Below are positions 1 through 19,171 of a DNA stretch of 43,811 nucleotides, piece after piece. Positions within the stretch are counted from its first letter, which is position 1. Each line of letters opens with the position of its first letter. The notes under the pieces are model-generated. The model was not told the DNA's origin. It made no database searches and saw only the letters and a list, made by a program, of their open reading frames with translations. The stretch is from Sulfurovaceae bacterium (lineage in GTDB: Bacteria > Campylobacterota > Campylobacteria > Campylobacterales > Sulfurovaceae): the NCBI GenBank assembly GCA_016744315.1, contig JADGER010000004.1, positions 1-43,811 of the forward strand, read 5' to 3'. Both the position numbers and the translations under genes were made by a program.

Positions 1-283
1 TTGAATATTTGTAGTAAATCTTCGATTTTCTCTCTCTTTTGTTTTCTTGTATTTTACTATTTTTTTATTAGAATGATATTAGTAGTGGAATGGGCTAATT
101 AGAAGGGCTATGATAACGGAAATGTTAATTAATATACCTGAATTAGAAGAACAGCAAAAAATAGCCAATACTTTAAGCTCTCTTGATAATCTTATAGAAG
201 CACAAACTAAAAAAGTGGAAACACTTAAACAACATAAAAAAGGCTTGATGCAAAAGCTTTTTGTAAATAAGGAAGAAAATTAA
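1..283 (+). pseudogene. hsdS: Decayed 3' remnant of type I restriction specificity gene hsdS
   Basis: The last 57 codons (from position 110) encode a typical HsdS C-terminus: a PELEEQQKIA segment followed by an amphipathic helix ending in KGLMQKLF, the conserved region that contacts HsdM. Upstream the reading frame is broken. HsdS-like words appear in successive different frames (VFYYFF in frame 1, NDISSGMG in frame 3, then the C-terminus in frame 2), with stops between them. The gene is also cut by the window edge, so its start is not visible. The stop codon shares one base with the next ATG (TAATG at 281-285), showing that it was once part of this operon. A functional fragment initiating at the ATG at 110 cannot be excluded. 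The C-terminal identity is fairly sure; the frameshifts are my reading of weakly conserved sequence. Confidence 0.6.
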
Positions 284-1374
284 TGAGTACACAAAAAAAA
301 CTTTGGACTTATAAAAAATTACCAAATCTAATAACTAGACTAAGAGATGATTTAAACGACAAAGATTTTGTATTGATTTATGCCTATAATGGCACAGGTA
401 AAACGCGTATGTCTATGGAGGTTAAAGAAAAGGGTAAAAAGAAACAAGGAGTCAATAGAGATACTCTCTACTTTAATGCTTTTACTGAAGATTTATTCCA
501 TTGGAATAATGACTTAGAGAATGATACTCATAGACATCTTATTATTAATGAAGACTCTATGTTCTTTAGTGGTTTTAAAGAGTTAGCACTTGAAAGAAAA
601 ATATCTAACTATTTATGGCGATATGCTGATTTTAATTTTATTATTGATTATGAAGCTTGGACTATTATATTTTCAAAAAATGACGATGACCACATCAAGA
701 TATCAAGAGGAGAAGAGAATATCTTTATTTGGTCTTTTTTTCTTGCTATTTGTCAATTGGTGATTGATGATACTGAGGGAGTTGGTACATATAATTGGGT
801 GAAATATTTTTATATTGATGACCCTATCTCATCGCTTGATGATAATAATGCTATTGCTGTGGCAAGTGACCTTGCTTCATTACTTAAAGATAGTGTAGGA
901 AAAGTAAAAACTGTTATATCCTCGCATCATGGCTTATTCTTTAATGTAATGGTCAATGAACTAAAAAAGAAAAAACATAAAAGATATTTTTTGCATAGAG
1001 ATAGAAATAGTGATACCTACACACTACAAGCTACTGATGAGACTCCATTTTTTCATCATGTAGCAACACTAAGTGAACTTCAAGAAGCAGTAAAATCAAA
1101 TAAAATCTATACTCATCATTTTAATATGTTACGAAGTATTTTAGAAAAAACTGCAACTTTTTTTGGTTCAGATGATTTTTCTTATTGTATTAATGGGATA
1201 GAAGATGAGGCACTATATGCTAGAGCATTAAATTTACTAAGTCATGGTAAACATTCAGTATATGAACCAAGAGAAATGGTAGAAGACAATAAAGAACTAT
1301 TTAAAGAAATATTATCAAAATTTTTAAATCAATATAAATTTGATTTACCTAATATATTTGAACAAGAAGGATAA
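283..1374 (+). CDS. AAA_13-type ATPase linked to type I restriction locus (RloA/PrrC-like ATPase)
   Basis: A 363-residue protein with ABC/SMC-type ATPase motifs: Walker A AYNGTGKT (34-41), a signature-like SRGEEN (141-146), Walker B with extension YIDDPISSLD (177-186) and a switch-histidine segment ISSHH (212-216). This pattern belongs to the AAA_13 group, which includes the ATPase part of PrrC and RloC anticodon nucleases and the 'restriction-linked' proteins of Campylobacter hsd loci. I see no recognised nuclease domain. The C-terminal 140 residues are His- and Glu-containing helical sequence of unknown role. It lies between hsdS and hsdM, overlaps the hsdS stop by one base and ends 2 bases before hsdM, so it is co-transcribed and probably translationally coupled. 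The likely role is an accessory phage-defence ATPase; that is inference. Confidence 0.75.
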   Translation: MSTQKKLWTYKKLPNLITRLRDDLNDKDFVLIYAYNGTGKTRMSMEVKEKGKKKQGVNRDTLYFNAFTEDLFHWNNDLENDTHRHLIINEDSMFFSGFKELALERKISNYLWRYADFNFIIDYEAWTIIFSKNDDDHIKISRGEENIFIWSFFLAICQLVIDDTEGVGTYNWVKYFYIDDPISSLDDNNAIAVASDLASLLKDSVGKVKTVISSHHGLFFNVMVNELKKKKHKRYFLHRDRNSDTYTLQATDETPFFHHVATLSELQEAVKSNKIYTHHFNMLRSILEKTATFFGSDDFSYCINGIEDEALYARALNLLSHGKHSVYEPREMVEDNKELFKEILSKFLNQYKFDLPNIFEQEG

Positions 1375-1376
1375 GT

Positions 1377-2984
1377 ATGAGCGATGAAAACCAAAAAGAA
1401 TTAGGAAAAATACTCTGGGCTATAGCTGATGATTTGCGTGGGTCTATGAATGCCGATGATTTTAGAGATTATATGCTCTCTTTTTTGTTCTTGCGATACC
1501 TTTCAGACAATTATGAAGCGTCTGTCAAAAAGGAGTTGGGGGCTGATTATCCAGTGGTTGGGGAGGAGGATAAGCGTCCACCTTTGGCTTTGTGGTATGA
1601 ACAAAATGAAGAAGATATAAAACCTTTTGAAGAGCAGATGCGTAAGAAAGTGCATTATGTTATAGAGCCTAGATATTTGTGGAATGCTATATCTGAACTG
1701 GCACGAAGACAAAGTGACGCACTTCATAAGACTTTGGAAGAGGCTTTTAAATATATTGAAAATGAGTCTTTTTCTACGGCTTTTGATGGACTGTTTTCGG
1801 AAATTAATCTCAACTCTGAAAAATTGGGCAAAAACTATTCTGCTAGAAATGAGAAGCTTTGTAAGATTATTACCAAAATAGCAGAGGGTATTGCAGAGTT
1901 TTCTAATGATAGTGATGTGTTGGGTGATGCGTATGAGTATCTTATTGGTCAGTTTGCAGCAGGTGGAGGCAAAAAAGCAGGAGAGTTTTATACGCCTCAA
2001 CAAGCCTCTACCATACTCTCTCGTATCGTCTCGCTTGATAGCCAAGACCCTAGTATGGGAAAAAAGAAAAAGATTAATGCTGTTTTTGACTTTGCTTGTG
2101 GTTCTGGGTCTTTGCTACTGAATGTGCGTAAACAGATGGGCAAATATGGCGTAGGCAAAATCTATGGACAAGAGAACAATATCACCACTTATAACCTTGC
2201 ACGGATGAATATGCTTCTTCACGGTGTCAAAGACAGTGAATTTGAGATACAGCACGGAGATTCGCTTATCAATGAGTGGGAGTTGCTAAGTGAGGAGAAC
2301 CCATCCAAAAAGATGCGTTTTGATGCTGTTGTAGCCAATCCTCCTTTTTCTCTGCGTTACGAGCCTAATGATGAAATGGCTAAAGATTTTAGATTTAAAA
2401 ACTATGGTCTAGCCCCAAAGAGTGCAGCTGATTTTGCTTTTTTACTCCACGGATTTCACTTTTTGGACAAAGAGGGAACAATGGCGATAATCTTGCCTCA
2501 CGGTGTGCTGTTTCGTGGTGGAGCAGAGGCAAAAATACGCACAAAACTACTACAAGATGGACATATAGACACAGTGATAGGTTTACCTCCTAAACTCTTC
2601 TTCTCTACTGGAATACCTGTGTGTATTTTGGTACTCAAAAAGTGTAAAAAGAGTGATGATGTGTTGTTTGTGAATGCTAGTGAGTATTTTACCAAAGGCA
2701 AACGACAAAATCATTTGGGAATAGAAGATATAGATAAAATCGTAGAGACTTATCAATACAGAAAAGAAGAAGAACGATACTCTCGTGCAGTCTCATTTGA
2801 AGAGATAGAAAAAAATGATTTTAACCTCAATATCTCACGATATGTAAGCACAGCAAAACCCGAAACCATTGTAGATTTGGATGAGGTGGGTAGTGAACTG
2901 AAAAATATAGAGAAAGATATAAAGAAGTTTAGAAATGAACATAATGCGTATTTAAAAGAGTTGGGGTTGGAGGGGTTGGTTTAA
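1377..2984 (+). CDS. hsdM: Type I restriction-modification DNA methyltransferase subunit HsdM
   Basis: A 535-residue N6-adenine methyltransferase subunit. Residues 1-160 form the helical HsdM N-terminal domain. The Rossmann methylase domain follows, with S-adenosylmethionine motif I DFACGSG (238-244) and the catalytic NPPF motif (321-324). The C-terminus (about 500-535) is a helical segment that probably packs on HsdS. The length and N-terminus resemble the EcoR124/type IC branch. The ribosome binding site AAGGATAAGT lies in the end of the preceding gene. All catalytic motifs are intact, but the linked hsdS is broken and no hsdR is in view, so methylation would need another specificity subunit or the hsdS fragment. 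It is the last gene of the operon; a new promoter follows directly. Confidence 0.93.
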   Translation: MSDENQKELGKILWAIADDLRGSMNADDFRDYMLSFLFLRYLSDNYEASVKKELGADYPVVGEEDKRPPLALWYEQNEEDIKPFEEQMRKKVHYVIEPRYLWNAISELARRQSDALHKTLEEAFKYIENESFSTAFDGLFSEINLNSEKLGKNYSARNEKLCKIITKIAEGIAEFSNDSDVLGDAYEYLIGQFAAGGGKKAGEFYTPQQASTILSRIVSLDSQDPSMGKKKKINAVFDFACGSGSLLLNVRKQMGKYGVGKIYGQENNITTYNLARMNMLLHGVKDSEFEIQHGDSLINEWELLSEENPSKKMRFDAVVANPPFSLRYEPNDEMAKDFRFKNYGLAPKSAADFAFLLHGFHFLDKEGTMAIILPHGVLFRGGAEAKIRTKLLQDGHIDTVIGLPPKLFFSTGIPVCILVLKKCKKSDDVLFVNASEYFTKGKRQNHLGIEDIDKIVETYQYRKEEERYSRAVSFEEIEKNDFNLNISRYVSTAKPETIVDLDEVGSELKNIEKDIKKFRNEHNAYLKELGLEGLV

Positions 2985-5617: not shown

Positions 5618-6928
5618 ATGTTTATAAGAATTTTAAAATACTCTTTTATAAGTTTATCTTTGAGTGCTGTGGCACTTTTTGGAGAACATAATACAAGAAT
5701 TATAAATGGCTCTGAGGTGGCAGATGCTAGTACTCGTTGGAACTTTATTGTCTCTTTATCAGAAGATGGTGAAGCAAGTTGTGGAGGTACGCTTATTGCT
5801 CCTAGCTGGGTACTTACTGCGTCACATTGTGTTATAGATGATTATGGTAAGTTGATGGCTGGAAGTATGGATATGAAGGTAAAATTAGGAAACTATACCC
5901 TTTCGAACCAAGAAATAGAAACCTATACGGTCAAGCAAATTATATCAAACCCAAATTATGATCCCTCTACAACTGATAATGATATAGCACTTATTGAACT
6001 CTCTACAAATAATACAAGTATAGAATATTTCCCAACTATTGCATCTAATATAGCACTAGACACAGGAAAAGTAGCATTTGTAGCTGGCTGGGGGAATTTG
6101 GTAGCCGATAGTAATTTAGAAGCTTCTTATCCTGATAGACTCAATGAGGTAAAAGTACCTATTGTAGATTATAATTTATGTAATGATGGATTTGATGGTG
6201 TTTTAACAGAAAATATGTTTTGTGCTGGATACCTAGAAGGAGGCAAAGATTCTTGTCAAGGAGATAGTGGAGGTCCTTTGATTAGTTATGAAAACACTCA
6301 AAGTAATTTAATAGGTGTAGTAAGCTGGGGTGATCAGTGTGCAGAAGTAGGAAAAGCAGGTGTTTATACAAAAGTTCAAAATTATTATAATTGGATTGTT
6401 TCATATACAGGAGAGTTAACGAGTAAAAATAGTTATTTTGTAGCTTCAGAGCTTCTTTCTGCATCTACTTTAACAAAACTTTATGTAGCTACATTTAATA
6501 GAGCTCCTGATAGTGCAGGAATTTCATATTGGTTAGATTCTAAATTAGCTATAGAAAATATTGCTCAAAGCTTTTTCCAACAGCCAGAAACACAGACTTT
6601 GTACCCAGAAGATACAAGCACAGAAGCATTTGTTGTATTAGTCTATCAAAACCTTTTTAACCGAGAGCCTGATCAAGAGGGCTTAACTTATTGGATAGAA
6701 GAGTTAGAAAATGGTTTGATTTCTAAATCTTATTTTATACTTGCTGTTATGCATGGTGCAAAAGATGATGATAGTGTTATTTTAGAAAATAAAAAATCTG
6801 TTGGTGAACATTTTGCAAATAGTGCTTTAAATAGTGTAACTGATGCCAAAAGTGTTATGAGTGGCGTAAATGAAACATCACAAAGTGTAGACAGTGCATT
6901 TGCTACTATAGATAGCTTAAGCCAATAA
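5618..6928 (+). CDS. Exported trypsin-like serine protease with C-terminal DUF4214-like domain
   Basis: A 436-residue protein with a signal peptide (about 1-21) and a complete S1 (chymotrypsin-fold) domain at 27-265. The catalytic triad is H70 (TASHC), D122 (NDIAL) and S217 (GDSGGP). D211, six residues before the Ser, matches trypsin Asp189 and predicts cleavage after Lys/Arg. Cys pairs 55/71, 188/202 and 213/241 match the conserved disulfides. R27-IING resembles a zymogen activation site. Residues 270-400 hold two copies of a DUF4214-like unit (FNRAPDSAGISYWLD and FNREPDQEGLTYWIE), a module often found on surface or secreted proteins. The gene has its own -10 promoter. It is probably secreted or surface-bound; the substrate is unknown. 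S1 proteases with intact disulfides are uncommon in this phylum, so horizontal acquisition is possible. Confidence 0.92.
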   Translation: MFIRILKYSFISLSLSAVALFGEHNTRIINGSEVADASTRWNFIVSLSEDGEASCGGTLIAPSWVLTASHCVIDDYGKLMAGSMDMKVKLGNYTLSNQEIETYTVKQIISNPNYDPSTTDNDIALIELSTNNTSIEYFPTIASNIALDTGKVAFVAGWGNLVADSNLEASYPDRLNEVKVPIVDYNLCNDGFDGVLTENMFCAGYLEGGKDSCQGDSGGPLISYENTQSNLIGVVSWGDQCAEVGKAGVYTKVQNYYNWIVSYTGELTSKNSYFVASELLSASTLTKLYVATFNRAPDSAGISYWLDSKLAIENIAQSFFQQPETQTLYPEDTSTEAFVVLVYQNLFNREPDQEGLTYWIEELENGLISKSYFILAVMHGAKDDDSVILENKKSVGEHFANSALNSVTDAKSVMSGVNETSQSVDSAFATIDSLSQ

Positions 6929-6957: not shown

Positions 6958-7878
6958 ATGACAAACCCTCTTATTACTATAGCTATTCCTGTATATAATA
7001 ATGAAAAGACTATACGAAAAACTATTGATTCTTGCTTGAATCAAAATACTACTATCAATTATGAAATATTAATAGTAGATGATGCAAGTGAGGATAGTAT
7101 TCCTCAAATTTTGGCTACTTATAATGACCAAAAGATACGCATTAAAACACTTACTACTAGAGTTCCATTGATTGCAAATCATAATGTTTGTCTTGATAAT
7201 GCTTTGGGTGATTATGTTGTTTTTTGTCATGCAGATGATGCTTTGGAACCGCATGCTATAGAGACAATAGCCAAGAAATTAAAAGAGAGAAATTATCCCA
7301 AAAAATATCTCCTTTGGGGACATAGTTTGTTTAGAGATTATGGTCTACAATTGCAAAAAGCAGGATTTAATACCAATGAACTTATTGTAGGGGAATATGC
7401 TGTAATGCTTCCTATGCATGGAGGGCTTACACCATCAGGGACTTGTTATAGTAGAGAGTCTCTTTTGGAGTTTGGTGGATTTATGCATGTAGATATTATG
7501 CTAGCACCTTCGGATATTACTACAATGTTACATTTGGCACTCAATGGATTTAGGTTTGAGATGATGGATGAGATGATATTTATTCGCAAAGGTGCATCTA
7601 CCATGACCAGCGATACTAAAATCAAAGAGTTTTTAGAAGCCTATGATAATGCGTATCTTCATTTTATCAAAAATACAGCACATGAAGAGATAGAAAATCT
7701 GCTAAGAGTCTCTACACAGCACAAACAAAAACCATACTACTGCTACTATTCTTTAGCACAAGATAGCAGATATAAAAAACCTATTTGGAATATACTCAAA
7801 AGAGACCTTATTACACAGCCATGGAGACTCAAAAGTAAAATTGTTCGTAAACTTATCAGCAGAGTGCGTTCTTCATAA
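6958..7878 (+). CDS. Family 2 glycosyltransferase, first gene of the glycan cluster
   Basis: A 306-residue GT-A fold transferase. The N-terminus is the classic ITIAIPVYNNEKTI start, followed by the nucleotide-binding VDDASED (40-46) and a DXD-like HADDALEP (91-98) for metal and UDP-sugar binding. The C-terminal third is helical and basic, ending in RKLISRVRSS, which may touch the membrane. The stop codon is immediately followed by the ATG of the flippase gene, so the two are coupled. It probably adds a sugar to the lipid-linked repeat unit on the cytoplasmic face. Donor and acceptor cannot be predicted. No promoter is evident in the 29 bases before it; a GGAG ribosome binding site is present. 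Confidence 0.88.
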   Translation: MTNPLITIAIPVYNNEKTIRKTIDSCLNQNTTINYEILIVDDASEDSIPQILATYNDQKIRIKTLTTRVPLIANHNVCLDNALGDYVVFCHADDALEPHAIETIAKKLKERNYPKKYLLWGHSLFRDYGLQLQKAGFNTNELIVGEYAVMLPMHGGLTPSGTCYSRESLLEFGGFMHVDIMLAPSDITTMLHLALNGFRFEMMDEMIFIRKGASTMTSDTKIKEFLEAYDNAYLHFIKNTAHEEIENLLRVSTQHKQKPYYCYYSLAQDSRYKKPIWNILKRDLITQPWRLKSKIVRKLISRVRSS

Positions 7879-9312
7879 ATGTCACTTAAAGCCAAAGTCC
7901 TAACAGGCACTAAGTGGGTTGCCTTTGCAAATGTATTTAAGCAAGTGTTACAGGTTTTGAGCCTAGTAGTTTTTGCACGACTTCTTTCTCCTGATGATTT
8001 TGGTCTTTTTGCCTTGCTTATGATTTTTGTAAGTTTCTTGGCAATGTTTACAGATATGGGGACAGCTTCGGCACTTATTCATATAGACCAACCTAGCCAA
8101 AAACTTCTCTCTAGTGTGTTCTTTTTTAATATATTTTTAGGCTTTTTTCTAGCAGTATTGTTGGTGCTGTCAGCGAGTTCTATTGCTCTATTTTTTGCTA
8201 ATCCTCCCCTTGAATTTTTGTTACAGCTTATTTCTATAAATTTTATTATTATAAGTTTTGGTGTGGTGCAGAAAGCTCGTTATGAAAAGGCATTAGAATT
8301 TAGAGAGTTGGCTATGATAGAGACATTGGCTATCTTTATAGGTATAAGTACAGGGATTATTTGTGCTATTAATGGTTTAGGAGTTTATAGCCTTTTGGCT
8401 CAAACATTAGTTACAAGCCTTCTGTCTGTGCTTGCTCTTTGGATAGTTGCCAAATGGCGACCTTCTTTGCACTTTTCTTTTGAAGATATTAAAAGAATTT
8501 GGGGTTATACTGCCAATCTCTCTACTTTTAATTTTGTAAACTATTTTTCAAGAAATGCAGATAACTTTTTGATTGGAAAGTTCTTGAACTCTTCGGCTTT
8601 GGGAGTTTATAGCTTGGCTTATAGTATTATGCTCTATCCACTCCAAAATATCTCACGAGTTCTTTTGCGTATACTCTTTCCTGCTTTTTCTACAATACAA
8701 AATGATAATGAAAAGTTCAAAAGAGTTTATCTTAAAACTATATTTTTTATAGCCCTTGTTTCTTTTCCTATTATGGCTGGATTGGTGGCTACAGCAGATT
8801 TATTAGTAGCAGTTTTATTTGGTGATAAGTGGCTTGGTTTGGCTCAAATTCTTATGATTTTGGCTCCTGTAGGGATTATTCAATCTATTGGCACAACCAA
8901 TGGCTCTATCTTTATGGCAAAAGGAAATACAAGACTTTTGCTTAGAGTAGGGATATTTAGTACGGTTGTTACAATTGCTTTTTTTGTAGGTGGACTTTTT
9001 TGGGGTGTTGAGGGTGTGGCATTTTCTTATTTGCTTTCTAATATGGTATTATTTTATCCAGTTTTTCGTATCTCTTGGGGACAAATAGGACTAAGTGTAT
9101 CAGAAGGACTTGTTGTACTTTTGCCTCTTTTGGCTATTGTTTCAATAATGGGTGCGAGTGTATGGGGATTAGGGCAATGGTTAGATACGCTTTCTCTTTA
9201 CCCCGTTGTACAGCTTATACTTATGATTGTTGCAGGTGTAGTTTTGTATATAGCACTGCTAACACTCAAATATGGGAACCCAAAAAAGTTCCTTAAAGAA
9301 CTCAAGAGATAA
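7879..9312 (+). CDS. wzx: Wzx/WzxC-type polysaccharide flippase
   Basis: A 477-residue integral membrane protein with about 12-14 hydrophobic segments. The N-terminus (LSLVVFARLLSPDDFGLFALLMIF) is characteristic of the polysaccharide-export MATE-like (PST) family that includes WzxC and TuaB. It would flip lipid-linked oligosaccharide units across the inner membrane before polymerisation by the Wzy-like protein encoded at 12827. It is fused directly to the preceding glycosyltransferase (TAA-ATG). Its last 11 bases overlap the end of the convergent membrane-protein operon. Family assignment is firm; the transported glycan is unknown. Confidence 0.9.
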   Translation: MSLKAKVLTGTKWVAFANVFKQVLQVLSLVVFARLLSPDDFGLFALLMIFVSFLAMFTDMGTASALIHIDQPSQKLLSSVFFFNIFLGFFLAVLLVLSASSIALFFANPPLEFLLQLISINFIIISFGVVQKARYEKALEFRELAMIETLAIFIGISTGIICAINGLGVYSLLAQTLVTSLLSVLALWIVAKWRPSLHFSFEDIKRIWGYTANLSTFNFVNYFSRNADNFLIGKFLNSSALGVYSLAYSIMLYPLQNISRVLLRILFPAFSTIQNDNEKFKRVYLKTIFFIALVSFPIMAGLVATADLLVAVLFGDKWLGLAQILMILAPVGIIQSIGTTNGSIFMAKGNTRLLLRVGIFSTVVTIAFFVGGLFWGVEGVAFSYLLSNMVLFYPVFRISWGQIGLSVSEGLVVLLPLLAIVSIMGASVWGLGQWLDTLSLYPVVQLILMIVAGVVLYIALLTLKYGNPKKFLKELKR

Positions 9313-10324
9313 GTAAATTTCTCTTGTGTTTGTCCCATCGTTTGCTTCGTGTGGCTCGTATTTCTCTCCAAACTCTTTTTTTTAGGACAACTCTTTCAAA
9401 AGTTTTTTTAATTTGTTTCCAAATTGTATTCTTTTTATTTTTTTTGGCTTCTTGTCTCAAAGAGCGTTTTTCAGAGAGATTTTTGACGATATTACTATAT
9501 CTTGACCGTTTGTTAGAGAGTTTATCTACAGAGTTAAGTCCATGGTCTAATATAGACTCTAGCCATTTATTAAACATATTTGATAGCTTTACAAGCCACG
9601 CTTTTGGATCTATTCCAATATAATTTAGTATGGTATTAAAAAAGTTTAAAATAGCCGCTATAAAGTATACTATTTTATCTACAACGAGTATAAATTTTTG
9701 ACCTATTTTATATCTAGCAAGTGTTTCTAAAAAGAGATTGAGCATAAGTACTTGAAAGATAAAACTCAAAAAATTAAAGCTTGTAATAATAAGATTCCAT
9801 AGGATTGTTATGAGTGGTAAAAAAATAGCATACATAAATTTTTGGATAGCTGCACCCAAAACTTTTGTCCAAAAAAAGTAGACCATTGGAATAGACAAAA
9901 GCATACTTCCAAAGGCTTTGAGTTTTTTGGCAAGAGTTGATTCTAAGATCTCTTCAAACTTTTTTTTCACAACAAGCGTAAGGTTTTTTTTGTATCTATT
10001 TACAGAGTGTTCTGTAAAAAACCGAGAGAGAATATCAATAATATGCCGTTTTGTTAGCATTCCAGCAGTAGCTATAAGTATAGCTTTTTTACCACCAGCT
10101 TTGATAATGGCATGTGCGAGTGTCTTGGCTCCTGTTACTTTGGCACCAAGTCCAAATTTTAGAAAGAGTATACCAAGTGTTTCCCACCAGCCAAAAAAAT
10201 AGAGCGAAAAAAGTAAAAGCATAAACGATATAAGCGTAACAATTCCCACAATATGTTTGTGTACCCATGCTTTGAGGGTAAGAAAAGAGTGTGGTACTCT
10301 TTTATTCGTCTCCTGTGTCACCAT
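9302..10324 (-). CDS. Unrecognised membrane protein with strongly basic C-terminus (third gene of antisense operon)
   Basis: About 340 residues. The start at 10324 is chosen because GGGGGAG lies 6 bases upstream; a longer in-frame reading to 10450 would overlap the previous gene by about 150 bases. Hydrophobic segments follow a short N-terminal tail (HIVGIVTLISFMLLLFSLYFF), then a Gly/Ala/Lys-rich loop (GAKTLAHAIIKAGGKKAIL) and several more hydrophobic stretches. The last 90 residues are hydrophilic and very rich in Lys and Arg, predicted cytoplasmic and possibly nucleic-acid- or phospholipid-binding. I do not recognise the family. It is the last gene of a three-gene operon transcribed against the surrounding glycan cluster, and its 3' end overlaps wzx by 11 bases. 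Confidence 0.75.
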   Translation of the reverse strand: MVTQETNKRVPHSFLTLKAWVHKHIVGIVTLISFMLLLFSLYFFGWWETLGILFLKFGLGAKVTGAKTLAHAIIKAGGKKAILIATAGMLTKRHIIDILSRFFTEHSVNRYKKNLTLVVKKKFEEILESTLAKKLKAFGSMLLSIPMVYFFWTKVLGAAIQKFMYAIFLPLITILWNLIITSFNFLSFIFQVLMLNLFLETLARYKIGQKFILVVDKIVYFIAAILNFFNTILNYIGIDPKAWLVKLSNMFNKWLESILDHGLNSVDKLSNKRSRYSNIVKNLSEKRSLRQEAKKNKKNTIWKQIKKTFERVVLKKRVWREIRATRSKRWDKHKRNLLIS

Positions 10325-10931
10325 CTCCATCTCCCCCGTCACCAGTACCTGACTCTGTAGAGTTAACGCCTCTGATACCATGGAGTGCTGATCTAATTTG
10401 AGACCAAGTTCCACCCAAAAAGAGAATAACAAATATAGCAAACTGACCAAGCTCTACAGTCATACCCCATCCAATAGTATTAAACCATTTTAAAAATGCA
10501 ATAGGTGTTGCAAAAACAAGTGCAAGACCTATTATTCCAATGGTGTTAAGTGTTCCAGCACTCAAAGAGAGCATATAAAATGCAATACTAACAAGCAAAA
10601 TACCACTAAATGGATAAATAACATCTGAGGGTGTTTTTACTGATAAAAGCATTAATCCCAAGATAACTATAGATAAACCAAGAAGAATAAATATCTTTTT
10701 GGCTGTATTCATAACACCTTTGATATAATAGGTTTTTGCTATAAAATAAGTGAGAATTGTCAAAATAACAATAGCAATATTCTCAACTTTTTGTACCATG
10801 TTTGGAAGGGCAATAACTTCTTTGAACCAAAATTCAAAAAGATATACAGAGACCAAAGATAGAATCAAATTTATTCCTATCATTCCCCAGTTGCTTTTAT
10901 TACCACTTTTTACTGCTGTTTCTTTACTCAT
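10302..10931 (-). CDS. Unrecognised six-segment membrane protein with Gly/Asp tail (second gene of antisense operon)
   Basis: A 209-residue protein with about six hydrophobic segments (around 17-36, 46-70, 79-98, 106-150 as two, and 163-180). The acidic C-terminal tail has alternating Gly and Asp (SGTGDGGDGDGDTGDE). I do not recognise the family. The ATG at 10931 follows the previous stop by one base, and the GGAG ribosome binding site is inside the preceding gene. The DNA for the Gly/Asp tail is G-rich, unlike its AT-rich surroundings, and contains both the ribosome binding site and the start codon of the next gene, giving a 23-base overlap. This implies tight co-expression of the two proteins. 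Confidence 0.78.
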   Translation of the reverse strand: MSKETAVKSGNKSNWGMIGINLILSLVSVYLFEFWFKEVIALPNMVQKVENIAIVILTILTYFIAKTYYIKGVMNTAKKIFILLGLSIVILGLMLLSVKTPSDVIYPFSGILLVSIAFYMLSLSAGTLNTIGIIGLALVFATPIAFLKWFNTIGWGMTVELGQFAIFVILFLGGTWSQIRSALHGIRGVNSTESGTGDGGDGDGDTGDE

Positions 10932-10932
10932 A

Positions 10933-11808
10933 TTACTGCTCCTTAATAGATTGAGATTTATTTTTGATGTGATTATTTACACAATCAAAAAACTTTTTAT
11001 AGAGTTGCTGTTTTTGATCTTGGGAAGATGAGACTATTTCTATTCGTACTGCTTCACACTCTGGTGATAAAATATCATCATGCTCAAATGCTTTTTTAAG
11101 AAGTATAATAGTCTGAGTAAATCTGTTTTTGAAGGCAAGAATATATGCCTTAAGTGTTTCTGATATATTATGTATCTTCACATAAGATTGTGATTTTTTG
11201 AACCAAATGAGTGTAGCTATTACTATATCATAACGGCGTTTAAACCATGGTATTGCCATCAGCTGTGCTTCTCCTACATGCAAGACAAAGTGTACAGGAA
11301 TAAAAAAGAGTACTTTAAAAAGATACAATCCAATACCTATCCAAATATGCCCCGAGACAAAAGCACCTAATGCAAAAATACCAATAAGTTCCATAAAGAT
11401 AAATGGTGCGCCAAAGAGAGTAAGCACCATCCAATTTGGCATAGCTTTGATTTTGACTTCTGTATAATGAGCTATGCGTGATTTCTCTAATGATTTGGTA
11501 ATTCCCTTAAATCCTAATTCCCAAAATATCTCTAAAAAGATTACAACAAAAGCAGAGAGAGTAAAAAAGAGTATTCTTGCAAAGATATTATTGAGCTGTA
11601 ACTCTATTTCTTTGTTTTCACTCCAATTCTCTTTGACACTATAGAGCTTGTTTTCATAAGTGACCAAAAACCATTCACCAAAGCTCTTAATCTTAAGTCC
11701 AATTTTTTGCCATACTATCTTGGTATAAGGTATATATTCACCCAAAAAGAGGATAAGAATTGGCACCATTATCCAAGGATTTATAAGTAATGCTACTAAG
11801 TGATCCAT
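10933..11808 (-). CDS. Unrecognised multi-pass membrane protein (first gene of antisense operon)
   Basis: A 291-residue protein. Hydrophobic segments lie at about 5-22, 75-98, 125-170 (two or three) and 160-185. A hydrophilic stretch at 30-70 follows the first, and the last 90 residues are hydrophilic and mixed charge (ending in KNKSQSIKEQ). An extended -10 promoter lies upstream at 11845-11853 and an AAGGAAAA ribosome binding site precedes the ATG. I do not recognise the family. It heads an operon of three membrane proteins transcribed opposite to the glycan genes, which suggests an envelope function or an insertion into the cluster. No catalytic motif is evident. Confidence 0.8.
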   Translation of the reverse strand: MDHLVALLINPWIMVPILILFLGEYIPYTKIVWQKIGLKIKSFGEWFLVTYENKLYSVKENWSENKEIELQLNNIFARILFFTLSAFVVIFLEIFWELGFKGITKSLEKSRIAHYTEVKIKAMPNWMVLTLFGAPFIFMELIGIFALGAFVSGHIWIGIGLYLFKVLFFIPVHFVLHVGEAQLMAIPWFKRRYDIVIATLIWFKKSQSYVKIHNISETLKAYILAFKNRFTQTIILLKKAFEHDDILSPECEAVRIEIVSSSQDQKQQLYKKFFDCVNNHIKNKSQSIKEQ

Positions 11809-11844
11809 CTATTTTCCTTATAAAATTTATATTTTTAATAAACT

Positions 11845-11853
11845 ATTATACCA
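11845..11853 (-). promoter_or_regulatory. Extended -10 promoter (TGG-TATAAT) of the antisense membrane operon
   Basis: Read on the minus strand, TGGTATAAT lies 36 bases upstream of the ATG at 11808. It shares the 131-base divergent region with the promoter of the glycosyltransferase gene at 11940. No -35 match. Confidence 0.5.
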
Positions 11854-11903
11854 AAATATTTTAGTTTATACTCTTGCTAAGAAGTCTACTTTTTTGTTAA
11901 ATT

Positions 11904-11912
11904 TGATATAAT
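11904..11912 (+). promoter_or_regulatory. Extended -10 promoter (TGA-TATAAT) restarting the glycan cluster
   Basis: TGATATAAT sits 27 bases before the ATG at 11940, with an AAGGGAGTG ribosome binding site between. It probably drives 11940-19171, because the first two glycan genes are separated from this block by the antisense operon. Confidence 0.55.
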
Positions 11913-11939
11913 ATCTGTAAATTAAGGGAGTGATAGTAT

Positions 11940-12827
11940 ATGAAAAATCTTATCTGTATAAATACATATAATAGTGTCCAATTAGTCAAATCATTTATAT
12001 GGGATTATATAGAGTTTGCTAAATCTAATGAAGAGTATGATTTTGTAGTGAGTCTTGATGGAAGTGATAGTGATACTATTGCATATTGTCAAGCTCATAA
12101 TGTACCACTTGTCTATTCTGATGCTAATGAAGGTGTGGGTATTTCCAAAAATAGAATTATAGAATCTTTTGGTGATTATGATTACTACTTTTTTATTGAA
12201 GATGATATAGAACTTCTCAATCCTGAAGTATTTGATATTCATATCAAACTCTCAAAAGCACTTGATATTCACCACTTTTCTCTTTTTGAAGCAAGACGCA
12301 TTAGAAATCAAAAAGGGTGTTTGGAATCTGAGGGTTATCATATTATCCAAGCTATGTATGGTGGGGCTCCTTTTAACTTTTTTAGTAAAAAAGGTCTTGA
12401 TATAGTGGGTGGATTTCATACAAAATTTGCTGAATATAAACGCTTTGGACATACAGAACATACTTACCGTTTTGTAACTAATGGTTTAAGTAGCCACCCA
12501 TTTTTAATTATCCAAGAACTTCTTGATGGCTATTTTAGATGGAATGATCCTATATCACGAATTAAAATATCTGTAGAAGTATCTGAAAATAGACTTTTTA
12601 TGGAAGAAGAAAAGCTTATACAAGAGAAGATAAAATTTTTCCCTTTAGAAACACTCTCTGTTTATCACACAAGTAATATTGAAAATATGACTGCCTTAGA
12701 GAATGTTATTATTGACCCAAATATAAAACAGCATAAACAGAAATTTTATTTTAAATTATTTTTTTTAGAGTCTCTTCGTAAGCTCAAAAATATAGCTAGA
12801 TTTATCCTAAGAAAACCTCTTGCCTAA
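11940..12827 (+). CDS. Glycosyltransferase, GT-A fold
   Basis: A 295-residue probable family-2-like transferase. The N-terminus is LICINTYNSVQLV, with a nucleotide-binding Asp at 40 (VVSLDGSDSD), a segment NEGVGISKNRII (63-74) typical of GT-A enzymes, and a metal-binding acidic motif IEDDIEL (86-92). The second half contains FRWNDPISRIKIS and a basic amphipathic C-terminus, suggesting peripheral membrane attachment. Its stop shares one base with the ATG of the following polymerase-like gene (TAATGA). It is predicted to extend the lipid-linked oligosaccharide on the cytoplasmic face; the sugar is unknown. Confidence 0.82.
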   Translation: MKNLICINTYNSVQLVKSFIWDYIEFAKSNEEYDFVVSLDGSDSDTIAYCQAHNVPLVYSDANEGVGISKNRIIESFGDYDYYFFIEDDIELLNPEVFDIHIKLSKALDIHHFSLFEARRIRNQKGCLESEGYHIIQAMYGGAPFNFFSKKGLDIVGGFHTKFAEYKRFGHTEHTYRFVTNGLSSHPFLIIQELLDGYFRWNDPISRIKISVEVSENRLFMEEEKLIQEKIKFFPLETLSVYHTSNIENMTALENVIIDPNIKQHKQKFYFKLFFLESLRKLKNIARFILRKPLA

Positions 12828-14002
12828 TGAATAAGTCATACTTTCCTATGCTAGACCCTTTGGGGTTTTTATTATTATTACTTTATATGGTTATTTTGAT
12901 AGGAGCATTAATCTATATCTCTAGACGGCTCAAAGTAGGATTCTCTGCAAAAGCTATTAGTATGTTTTTTATCTACTATACACTCTTTTTTATTGTGAGT
13001 ACACTTTTGCCTTTTGTACCAGATTTACCAGATACAGAACTTTTTGCGTTAATAATTACCGAAAATTATTTTCCTCCGCATCAATCTTTGGGTGTACGGC
13101 TTTTTTATGGTATTACTTATCCTTTACGGTTTTTATCATTTTTTACTTTGGAGCTATTTATACTTTTGCAGATTTTTATTTTTATGCTCTCTTTAATGAT
13201 TCTATGGAAATCTTGGCAAATTGTATTAAAGTATAATCATCAAGATATAGCTCTAGGAGCAAATCTATTTTTATTTCTCTCTGCTATTTATCCCTCTTTT
13301 TTACTCTATATACCTATACCTTTACGAGAATTTTTTATTCTTTTTGGATTTTCAGTTATGATTTATGGATTGGTAGAGAGATATTATCTTGGAAGTGGAC
13401 TTTTTTATATATTCTTAGGATCACTTCTTTTGATTTTTGGAAGACCGCAACTTATTGTTATTGTTATTATCTTTTTGGCACTTTTCCAAAAAAATAGATG
13501 GATCAAATATGGATTAGTTGCAGGAAGTATACTTTTTCTTCCTATTATTTTTTCTAAACTTACTTCGTATCAGTTTACTCCAGAATTTTTTGCATATTTA
13601 CGCAATGTAAGTAATGAACGATATGGGGAATTAGCGTATGGAATGGTAGAATGGAGTAGTTATTGGGAGCTTATTCGTGATTTACCTCTGCTATTTTTGC
13701 AGTTTATACTCTCTCCTTTTCCTTTTTTACATGATAAAAATCCTCTCTCTCTTTTGGCTATATTTATAGATGCTCTGTTTGTGATTGCTATTTATCTTTC
13801 TGTATTATATGCAGGGTTAAAAGTATCCAAAATATATCTTTTTATATTTCTTACAAGTAGTATATTATTTGCTATATGGGAATTTCATCTAGGTGCAGCA
13901 GTTCGTCATCGTATGCCTTTGATAGCAATACTTCTTCCTGTGGCATCGTATGGGATGATAAAACTATACCAAGATATTCAAAATTATAAGGCAAAAAAAT
14001 GA
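12827..14002 (+). CDS. wzy: Wzy-like O-antigen/polysaccharide polymerase
   Basis: A 391-residue integral membrane protein with about 10 hydrophobic segments and a long periplasmic-type loop around 260-300 (FAYLRNVSNERYGELAY). The segment YPSFLLYIPIPLREFFILFG (about 155-174) and the late AAVRHRMPLIAILLP fit the Wzy/EpsG-type pattern: Arg-containing loops between membrane helices, low overall similarity. Its position between glycosyltransferases and next to a Wzx and a Wzz supports polymerase function. It overlaps both neighbours by 1-4 bases. Wzy proteins are too divergent for a firm call from sequence alone. Confidence 0.7.
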   Translation: MNKSYFPMLDPLGFLLLLLYMVILIGALIYISRRLKVGFSAKAISMFFIYYTLFFIVSTLLPFVPDLPDTELFALIITENYFPPHQSLGVRLFYGITYPLRFLSFFTLELFILLQIFIFMLSLMILWKSWQIVLKYNHQDIALGANLFLFLSAIYPSFLLYIPIPLREFFILFGFSVMIYGLVERYYLGSGLFYIFLGSLLLIFGRPQLIVIVIIFLALFQKNRWIKYGLVAGSILFLPIIFSKLTSYQFTPEFFAYLRNVSNERYGELAYGMVEWSSYWELIRDLPLLFLQFILSPFPFLHDKNPLSLLAIFIDALFVIAIYLSVLYAGLKVSKIYLFIFLTSSILFAIWEFHLGAAVRHRMPLIAILLPVASYGMIKLYQDIQNYKAKK

Positions 14003-14715
14003 CTCTACAGATACTTATTTCTACTATGAATAATAAATTTATAGATAGAAATATCACTCCTCCTGCACCTTATGTGCTTATCAATCAAATATCACCCGAG
14101 AAAGGCTTATCCAAAAGTAGAAACCAAGCTATAGCCAAAAATAGCAGTGATATTGGGCTTATTAGTGATGATGATTTGGAGTATAAAGAGGATATAGAGA
14201 ATATTATCCTAGAAGCATTTACAAAAAATAGTGATGCTGATATAATAACCTTTCAAGTTCAAACCCCAGATGGTTTAGCATATAAAAAATATAAAGCAGA
14301 CTCTTTTTGGCATACACAAAAGAGCATTATGAGTGTTTCTTCTGTGGAGATAGCATTTAGAAATTCTTCTATCAAAGAGAAGGCTCTTACATTTGATGAA
14401 AGGTTTGGTCTAGGAAGTGATTTTCCTACAGGTGAAGAGGTTATATTTTTGAGTGACGCATTGAAAATGGGTCTAAAGATTCTTTATATACCTATACCTA
14501 TAGTAATTCATCCCTTAGAGAGTTCAGGAAAAAACTATGATAATCCACTGCTTATACAGGCAAAAGGGGCTATGTTTTATAGAATATTTTCGTTTTTAGG
14601 CTATGGTGCTTCTTTGCTTTTTGCACTCAAAAAATATAAATCATCCCCGCACTCTCTAATGCACTTTTTTGCATTAATGTCAGAAGGTATACGCAACTAT
14701 AGGAGTATAAAATAA
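13999..14715 (+). CDS. Short glycosyltransferase family 2-like protein
   Basis: A 238-residue protein. It begins LQILISTMNN and has an SKSRNQAI segment (38-45) and a triple-Asp motif SDDDLEY (56-62), as in GT-A enzymes where the acidic motif binds metal and UDP-sugar. The region between the first strand and SKSRNQAI is shorter than in typical GT2 enzymes, so the usual first nucleotide-binding Asp loop is missing or altered. A hydrophobic helix follows at about 197-212. The ATG overlaps the polymerase stop (ATGA), and its own stop overlaps the wzz ATG by one base. Glycosyltransferase identity is likely, activity less certain. Confidence 0.75.
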   Translation: MTLQILISTMNNKFIDRNITPPAPYVLINQISPEKGLSKSRNQAIAKNSSDIGLISDDDLEYKEDIENIILEAFTKNSDADIITFQVQTPDGLAYKKYKADSFWHTQKSIMSVSSVEIAFRNSSIKEKALTFDERFGLGSDFPTGEEVIFLSDALKMGLKILYIPIPIVIHPLESSGKNYDNPLLIQAKGAMFYRIFSFLGYGASLLFALKKYKSSPHSLMHFFALMSEGIRNYRSIK

Positions 14716-15542
14716 TGAATCAAACAACAGTAGAAAGAAATGAGATAAATGAGATAATAGATCTTTTGATAGGCTATAAAAAACTAATTGCTAGTGTCAC
14801 TATAGTTATAGTTCTTATAGCTACGATATATGCTTTTTTTATTTACAAACCTATTTATCAAGCCACAGCTCTTATTCAGTTAGCCAAACAGAATACTTTT
14901 ATATTTGAAGATGCTAATACACTAAGAGAAAAGTTAATTAATAAGTATGCTATTTATACAGACCCTGATAAAGCATTCCCACATATTGCTAGTATAGAAA
15001 AGCCAAAATACTCAACAGGTTTTCTTGAAATTACAGCTTTCTCTTATAATAAATCAGAATTAAGAACCATACTTACAAAGAGTGTTTCTGCAATACAAGA
15101 AGATCATAATACTTCATTCCAAGCATATATTAAAAATCAAAAAAATGTACTTACGCAGTCGAATGATATTATAGAGATGATGCAAAAACAGATAAGTCAA
15201 CTAAAAATAAATAATGAGCAATTAGATACGCAACTCAAAGGCTTAGATAATAATCAGTTAGCATTGATTGCTATTAAAACAGTCACTATTATTAAAAATG
15301 AAACAGAGATAATACGATTAGAAGAAAAAGAAATACGACAAGTAAATTTTTCAAAGTCTTTAACTGTAACACTTGATCCCACAAGAACATTCAATACAAA
15401 ACTTATAAATGGTATTAATATTCATCCAAAACCTATTACTCCAAGTAAAAAAATTATTATTATTGTAGGATTTATAAGTGGAATACTCCTTGGACTTCTT
15501 TTGTCTTTTTTCTTGTCATTTCTAGCAAAAAGGAGAGAATAA
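14715..15542 (+). CDS. wzz: Wzz-type chain-length determinant / polysaccharide co-polymerase
   Basis: A 275-residue protein with the two-helix topology of polysaccharide co-polymerases. The first membrane helix is at about 28-48. A periplasmic coiled-coil region follows (50-235, with MMQKQISQLKINNEQL). A Pro-rich segment HPKPITPS precedes the second helix (about 250-270), which ends in a short basic tail. There is no cytoplasmic tyrosine-kinase domain, so it is of the Wzz class and not a Wzc. It sets glycan chain length with Wzy. The deacetylase gene starts one base after its stop. Confidence 0.85.
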   Translation: MNQTTVERNEINEIIDLLIGYKKLIASVTIVIVLIATIYAFFIYKPIYQATALIQLAKQNTFIFEDANTLREKLINKYAIYTDPDKAFPHIASIEKPKYSTGFLEITAFSYNKSELRTILTKSVSAIQEDHNTSFQAYIKNQKNVLTQSNDIIEMMQKQISQLKINNEQLDTQLKGLDNNQLALIAIKTVTIIKNETEIIRLEEKEIRQVNFSKSLTVTLDPTRTFNTKLINGINIHPKPITPSKKIIIIVGFISGILLGLLLSFFLSFLAKRRE

Positions 15543-15543
15543 T

Positions 15544-19171
<3,628 letters not shown>

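Follow-up and report, generated by a model that had tools for sequence, protein, structure and literature searches.

Three minus-strand membrane-protein genes in a Wzx/Wzy glycan cluster of a Sulfurovaceae bacterium and their relation to a Campylobacterota gene pair

Do genes that split a glycan cluster belong to the glycan pathway, or is their location a poor guide to their function? The question is raised by a stretch of 43,811 nucleotides (the window; contig JADGER010000004.1 of a Sulfurovaceae metagenome bin), in which three minus-strand open reading frames, designated A, B and C (the trio; positions 9302 to 11808), are located between wzx and a glycosyltransferase (GT) gene.

The three genes and the flanking cluster

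Gene A (10933 to 11808, minus strand) encodes a 291-residue protein combining an N-terminal transmembrane portion with a core common to an unnamed Campylobacterota family of ~190 residues. The product of gene B (10302 to 10931, minus strand) comprises 209 residues, with about six transmembrane segments, a conserved acidic Gly/Asp C terminus and a weak resemblance to DUF6524. Gene C (9302 to 10324, minus strand; its start is placed at the ATG of position 10324, the open reading frame called mechanically beginning at a TTG at 10450) encodes 340 residues with about four transmembrane-like segments, a very basic loop (+14) and a very basic tail (+21). A gap of 1 bp separates A from B, and B and C share 23 bp. 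C also runs 11 bp into the 3' end of wzx, its final codons (9302 to 9345) being antisense to the end of that gene. Simple hydropathy analysis gave four, six and four transmembrane-like segments for A, B and C, respectively. The first-pass annotation had described three tightly coupled minus-strand genes for multi-pass proteins splitting the glycan cluster after wzx, in agreement with the reading frames, spacing and hydropathy obtained here.

Comparison with a second version of the trio, carried by contig C147 of the same bin and 86% identical in DNA, gave dN/dS ratios of 0.09, 0.12 and 0.15 for A, B and C, respectively, indicating that the three are real coding genes under purifying selection. 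This conclusion is further backed by the recurrence of all three genes, with their order unchanged, in four other genomes. Searches of Pfam, NCBIfam, PADLOC, PHROG and PDB afforded no above-threshold match for any of the three proteins, and profile searches against solved structures returned chance matches only. The earlier statement that the proteins are devoid of known motifs therefore holds, the sole resemblance being that of B to DUF6524, which is below threshold. AlphaFold models of C and A built from five-sequence alignments (pTM of 0.21 and 0.24, respectively) were too poor to use.

A scan for promoters and terminators revealed nothing in excess of shuffled sequences. Between A and the GT gene lie 131 bp (11809 to 11939), of which 124 are identical in C147, a proportion above the 86% of the genes. 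This region contains a TATAAT motif on each strand, which is consistent with divergent promoters, a weak indication since such a pair is expected by chance in ~20% of shuffles.

The flanking genes are on the plus strand. To the left (6958 to 9312), Pfam identified a GT2 gene (6958 to 7878) and wzx (7879 to 9312), whose orthologues are contiguous with those of the right-hand genes in genome G002. The right-hand part (11940 to 19171) encodes a GT, a Wzy-like protein, a second GT, Wzz, a deacetylase, an aminotransferase and a 4,6-dehydratase. The Pfam domains detected on the two sides were GT2, Polysacc_synt_3, Wzz, polysaccharide deacetylase, DegT and Polysacc_synt_2; the presumed Wzy and the GT encoded at 11940 had no Pfam match. 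The cluster adjoins a gene (5618 to 6928) for a protease of the trypsin family that carries a DUF4214 domain at its C terminus, and repeats resembling those of this protease were seen by eye in proteins at two other loci (L033 and L119). At the left edge of the window (283 to 2984), a gene for an AAA_13-domain protein is followed by one for a type I-like DNA methylase (HsdM_N plus N6_Mtase); the two may belong to a restriction or defence locus.

Location of the trio in related genomes

Among 10 genomes of the genus included in the search, 5 carry the trio, in each case in the order A-B-C and with tight spacing. Co-occurrence elsewhere was the check proposed by the first-pass annotation, which took its failure as an argument against a unit; the set recurs in G002, G003, G004 and G008. 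The form of C found in the trio was absent from other genera among 99 relatives searched. Most of the genomes compared are metagenome-assembled, and absence from incomplete bins counts little. The bin of the window is a Campylobacterota genome, and the named carriers of the trio are metagenome-assembled genomes of Epsilonproteobacteria, Sulfurovaceae and Sulfurovum. Based on Pfam assignments, which we also used to identify ffh, rplS, trmD and smpB, the trio adjoins rpsB-tsf in G008, G003 and G002 and the peroxiredoxin gene bcp in G002 and G004. Glycan genes were present in the fetched DNA around none of these four loci.

The comparison between G002 and the genome of the window was the most informative. 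In G002, the trio is located between bcp and rpsB. The orthologous glycan operon of G002 (GT-wzx-GT-wzy-GT-deacetylase), which is largely colinear with that of the window at 50 to 75% protein identity, lacks the trio, wzx being separated from the next GT gene by 4 bp. Reciprocally, bcp and rpsB are neighbors in the genome of the window, ~195 bp apart and with no trio between them. These reciprocal empty sites indicate that the trio changed place, in keeping with the independent insertion that had been listed among the early options. The source was most likely the rpsB-peroxiredoxin site, a direction deduced from this type of location being the commoner. Neither a transposase nor a clear terminal repeat was found, and inspection of the borders of the trio for transposon ends revealed no convincing terminal or target-site repeats. 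The end of C is shorter in the window than in three of the other four genomes with the trio (that of G003 is similarly short), and it was possibly trimmed on relocation.

The second version of the trio on C147 (locus L031, matching 9339 to 12596 of the window) is more likely a strain variant than a paralogue, because A adjoins the same GT gene as in the window and the DNA identity is 86%; the single copy of tsf in the bin bears against this interpretation. This second version is relevant to the possibility that the junction is an artefact of metagenome binning, the trio being really located elsewhere. The bin is fragmented into 277 contigs with 3.74% contamination and holds two trio versions, and the wzx-C side of the junction was covered by a single contig, that of the window; the contig of G009 stops inside wzx. 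However, the side of the trio facing the GT gene is present on two contigs of 86% identity, and the rpsB-bcp site of the same genome is empty, making an artefact very unlikely. Participation of the three proteins in the modification or export of the glycan, as subunits of the Wzx/Wzy system, would account for the insertion between wzx and the GT gene and for the same A-GT adjacency on C147, but the trio is on the opposite strand, all four other trio loci are free of glycan genes in the fetched DNA, and the G002 operon is intact without it. Thus, the conserved presence with glycan genes expected of a Wzx/Wzy component was not observed, and the intact trio-free operon in particular leads us to consider this proposal of the first-pass annotation highly improbable. 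Its other proposal, an envelope defence unit, fits a compact three-gene membrane operon located ~6 kb from the hsdM and AAA_13 genes at the left edge of the window. We regard it as scarcely tenable, since PADLOC, PHROG and viral contigs provided no match or other sign of defence, phage or mobile-element functions, and the relatives of the genes reside in housekeeping neighborhoods elsewhere.

We therefore favor, with a probability of roughly 70%, the interpretation that the trio is a self-contained, relocated operon that elaborates an A+C gene pair and acts outside the glycan pathway. Since the trio was relocated, its placement among sugar genes says little about function, and the locus illustrates how a position in a glycan cluster can mislead when a sister genome has the orthologous cluster without the inserted genes.

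Protein families of A, B and C

The core of A (~160 residues) is common to unnamed proteins of 170 to 210 residues at 25 to 30% identity. This family is present in 27 of 298 genomes of the class, and A belongs to it according to both a profile search (A5 profile; E = 3.6e-19) and hhalign (probability 99.1, E = 2e-18). The genes encoding the core are mostly located directly downstream of trmD-rplS and often before smpB; this rplS-side location is typical of the family but was not seen for the trio, which adjoins rpsB-tsf/bcp or, in the window, splits the glycan cluster. In five genomes of one genus of family f8, a DedA (VTT) gene lies between rplS and A, which is not so in a sixth f8 genome (G095), and in f15 the A gene is located between genes for DedA and a PAP2 phosphatase. 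Loci with an A-family gene beside DedA (VTT) include L123 (6065 to 7124) and L122 (5757 to 6911), in two families other than that of the window, with PAP2 once. In a tree of A, the trio proteins form one long-branched clade, and the genome of the window encodes no other A besides the C147 version.

In three genera (g4, g6 and g11) and in G001, a member of the genus of the window, the gene after A encodes a protein of ~300 to 340 residues that is distantly homologous to C. Comparison of C by hhalign with the set of these pair-type proteins gave a probability of 88, and with an enlarged set of C-like proteins from other genera a probability of 95.6 (E = 1e-8), unrelated pairings remaining below 1%. 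C of the window thus both matches the profile of the C-like partner family and is encoded in an operon with A. Many genomes that carry A lack C. G001 has the pair without the trio, and the two forms were never seen together. The pair and the trio of Sulfurovaceae have the same relative gene order, a homologous A core, a distantly related C and a basic C tail; unlike the trio, the pair has no B, an A shorter by ~100 residues and another genomic location, and identity between the two forms is ~28% for A and ~20% for C. The pair of Sulfurovum mangrovi (WP_229937474.1 and WP_229937475.1), next to smpB, is annotated as hypothetical proteins, and no paper describing the pair was found in the literature searched. 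A plasmid search with A retrieved S. mangrovi only; those with C and with a DUF6524 protein retrieved none.

The most distinctive feature of C is its charge. The net charge of the last 110 residues is +16 to +32 in every trio or pair protein tested and is thus kept despite ~20% identity between the two forms. When the last 110 residues of 311 proteins of at least 250 residues were compared, 15 of the 16 most basic tails belonged to C homologues.

All six B proteins match the C-terminal part of DUF6524 (PF20134) with E values of 5e-4 to 3e-3, below the cut-off; B of the window scores 17.8 bits against a curated cut-off of 27 bits. Alignment of B with the DUF6524 proteins of relatives by hhalign gave a probability of 1.3 (E = 0.04, 91 columns), and B differs from these proteins by additional N-terminal transmembrane segments. 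B was not assigned to the family on this sub-cut-off score. Three genomes of another genus (g10; G018, G027 and G272) have a true DUF6524 gene that abuts, or overlaps with, the gene for a C-like protein of 420 residues, which lacks the basic tail and which hhalign linked to the pair-type C at 97.8. At two loci (L126, 228 to 3182, and L127), the DUF6524 and C-like genes are divergent from a gene of the MotA/TolQ/ExbB family. A literature search revealed no paper on DUF6524.

A putative membrane complex and its candidate partners

The pairwise linkages of A with C, of DUF6524 with C, and of A, B and C together support the inference that the three proteins form one inner-membrane complex. A-B-C is probably an elaborated form, in which A has gained an N-terminal extension and B has joined, of an A+C pair of Campylobacterota that has not been described before and that normally resides in the ffh-rimM-trmD-rplS operon region. 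A and C would constitute the membrane core and B an accessory subunit. Through its strongly basic and probably cytoplasmic loop and tail, C may dock the complex onto an anionic partner in the cytoplasm, the ribosome being the likeliest candidate, in the course of membrane-protein biogenesis. Docking onto the ribosome is suggested by the basic tails and by the nearby genes ffh, rplS, rpsB, tsf and smpB, and we propose it tentatively, as a possibility short of even odds. A narrower version, in which A-B-C is a lineage-specific Campylobacterota tether of the translating ribosome, or of the chain delivered by SRP, at the inner membrane, and thereby a factor of membrane-protein biogenesis unrelated to YidC and Sec, appears distinctly doubtful.

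The neighboring translation genes may reflect an inherited gene order, and either such inheritance or binding to anionic lipids would equally explain the basic tails and the neighborhood. The main rival to ribosome docking is a role in the handling of lipid carriers or phospholipids, the complex flipping, recycling or organizing undecaprenyl phosphate or phospholipids and its basic segments binding anionic head groups. The adjacency of A to DedA in all five loci of the f8 genus and, together with PAP2, in f15 favors the binding of anionic lipids, as DedA proteins are reported as undecaprenyl-phosphate flippases in two papers (PMC9876793 and PMC10127716), and the trio of the window is beside Wzx/Wzy genes. 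However, the latter placement is secondary, neither the A loci of Sulfurovaceae nor any trio has a DedA neighbor, and no flippase family is matched by A or C, leaving this role unlikely in our estimation. Most of the remaining probability goes to functions other than those listed here. Whatever the partner, the two families, which have no Pfam or NCBIfam entry and are usually encoded in or near a translation operon, provide a defined and testable gene set.

Ribosome docking by the A-B-C platform would have a parallel in the membrane proteins of the YidC/Oxa1 type, which dock ribosomes and carry basic tails. Similar to these proteins, C is a predicted membrane protein with a long basic tail that is probably cytoplasmic. 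Its sequence, however, does not match their family.
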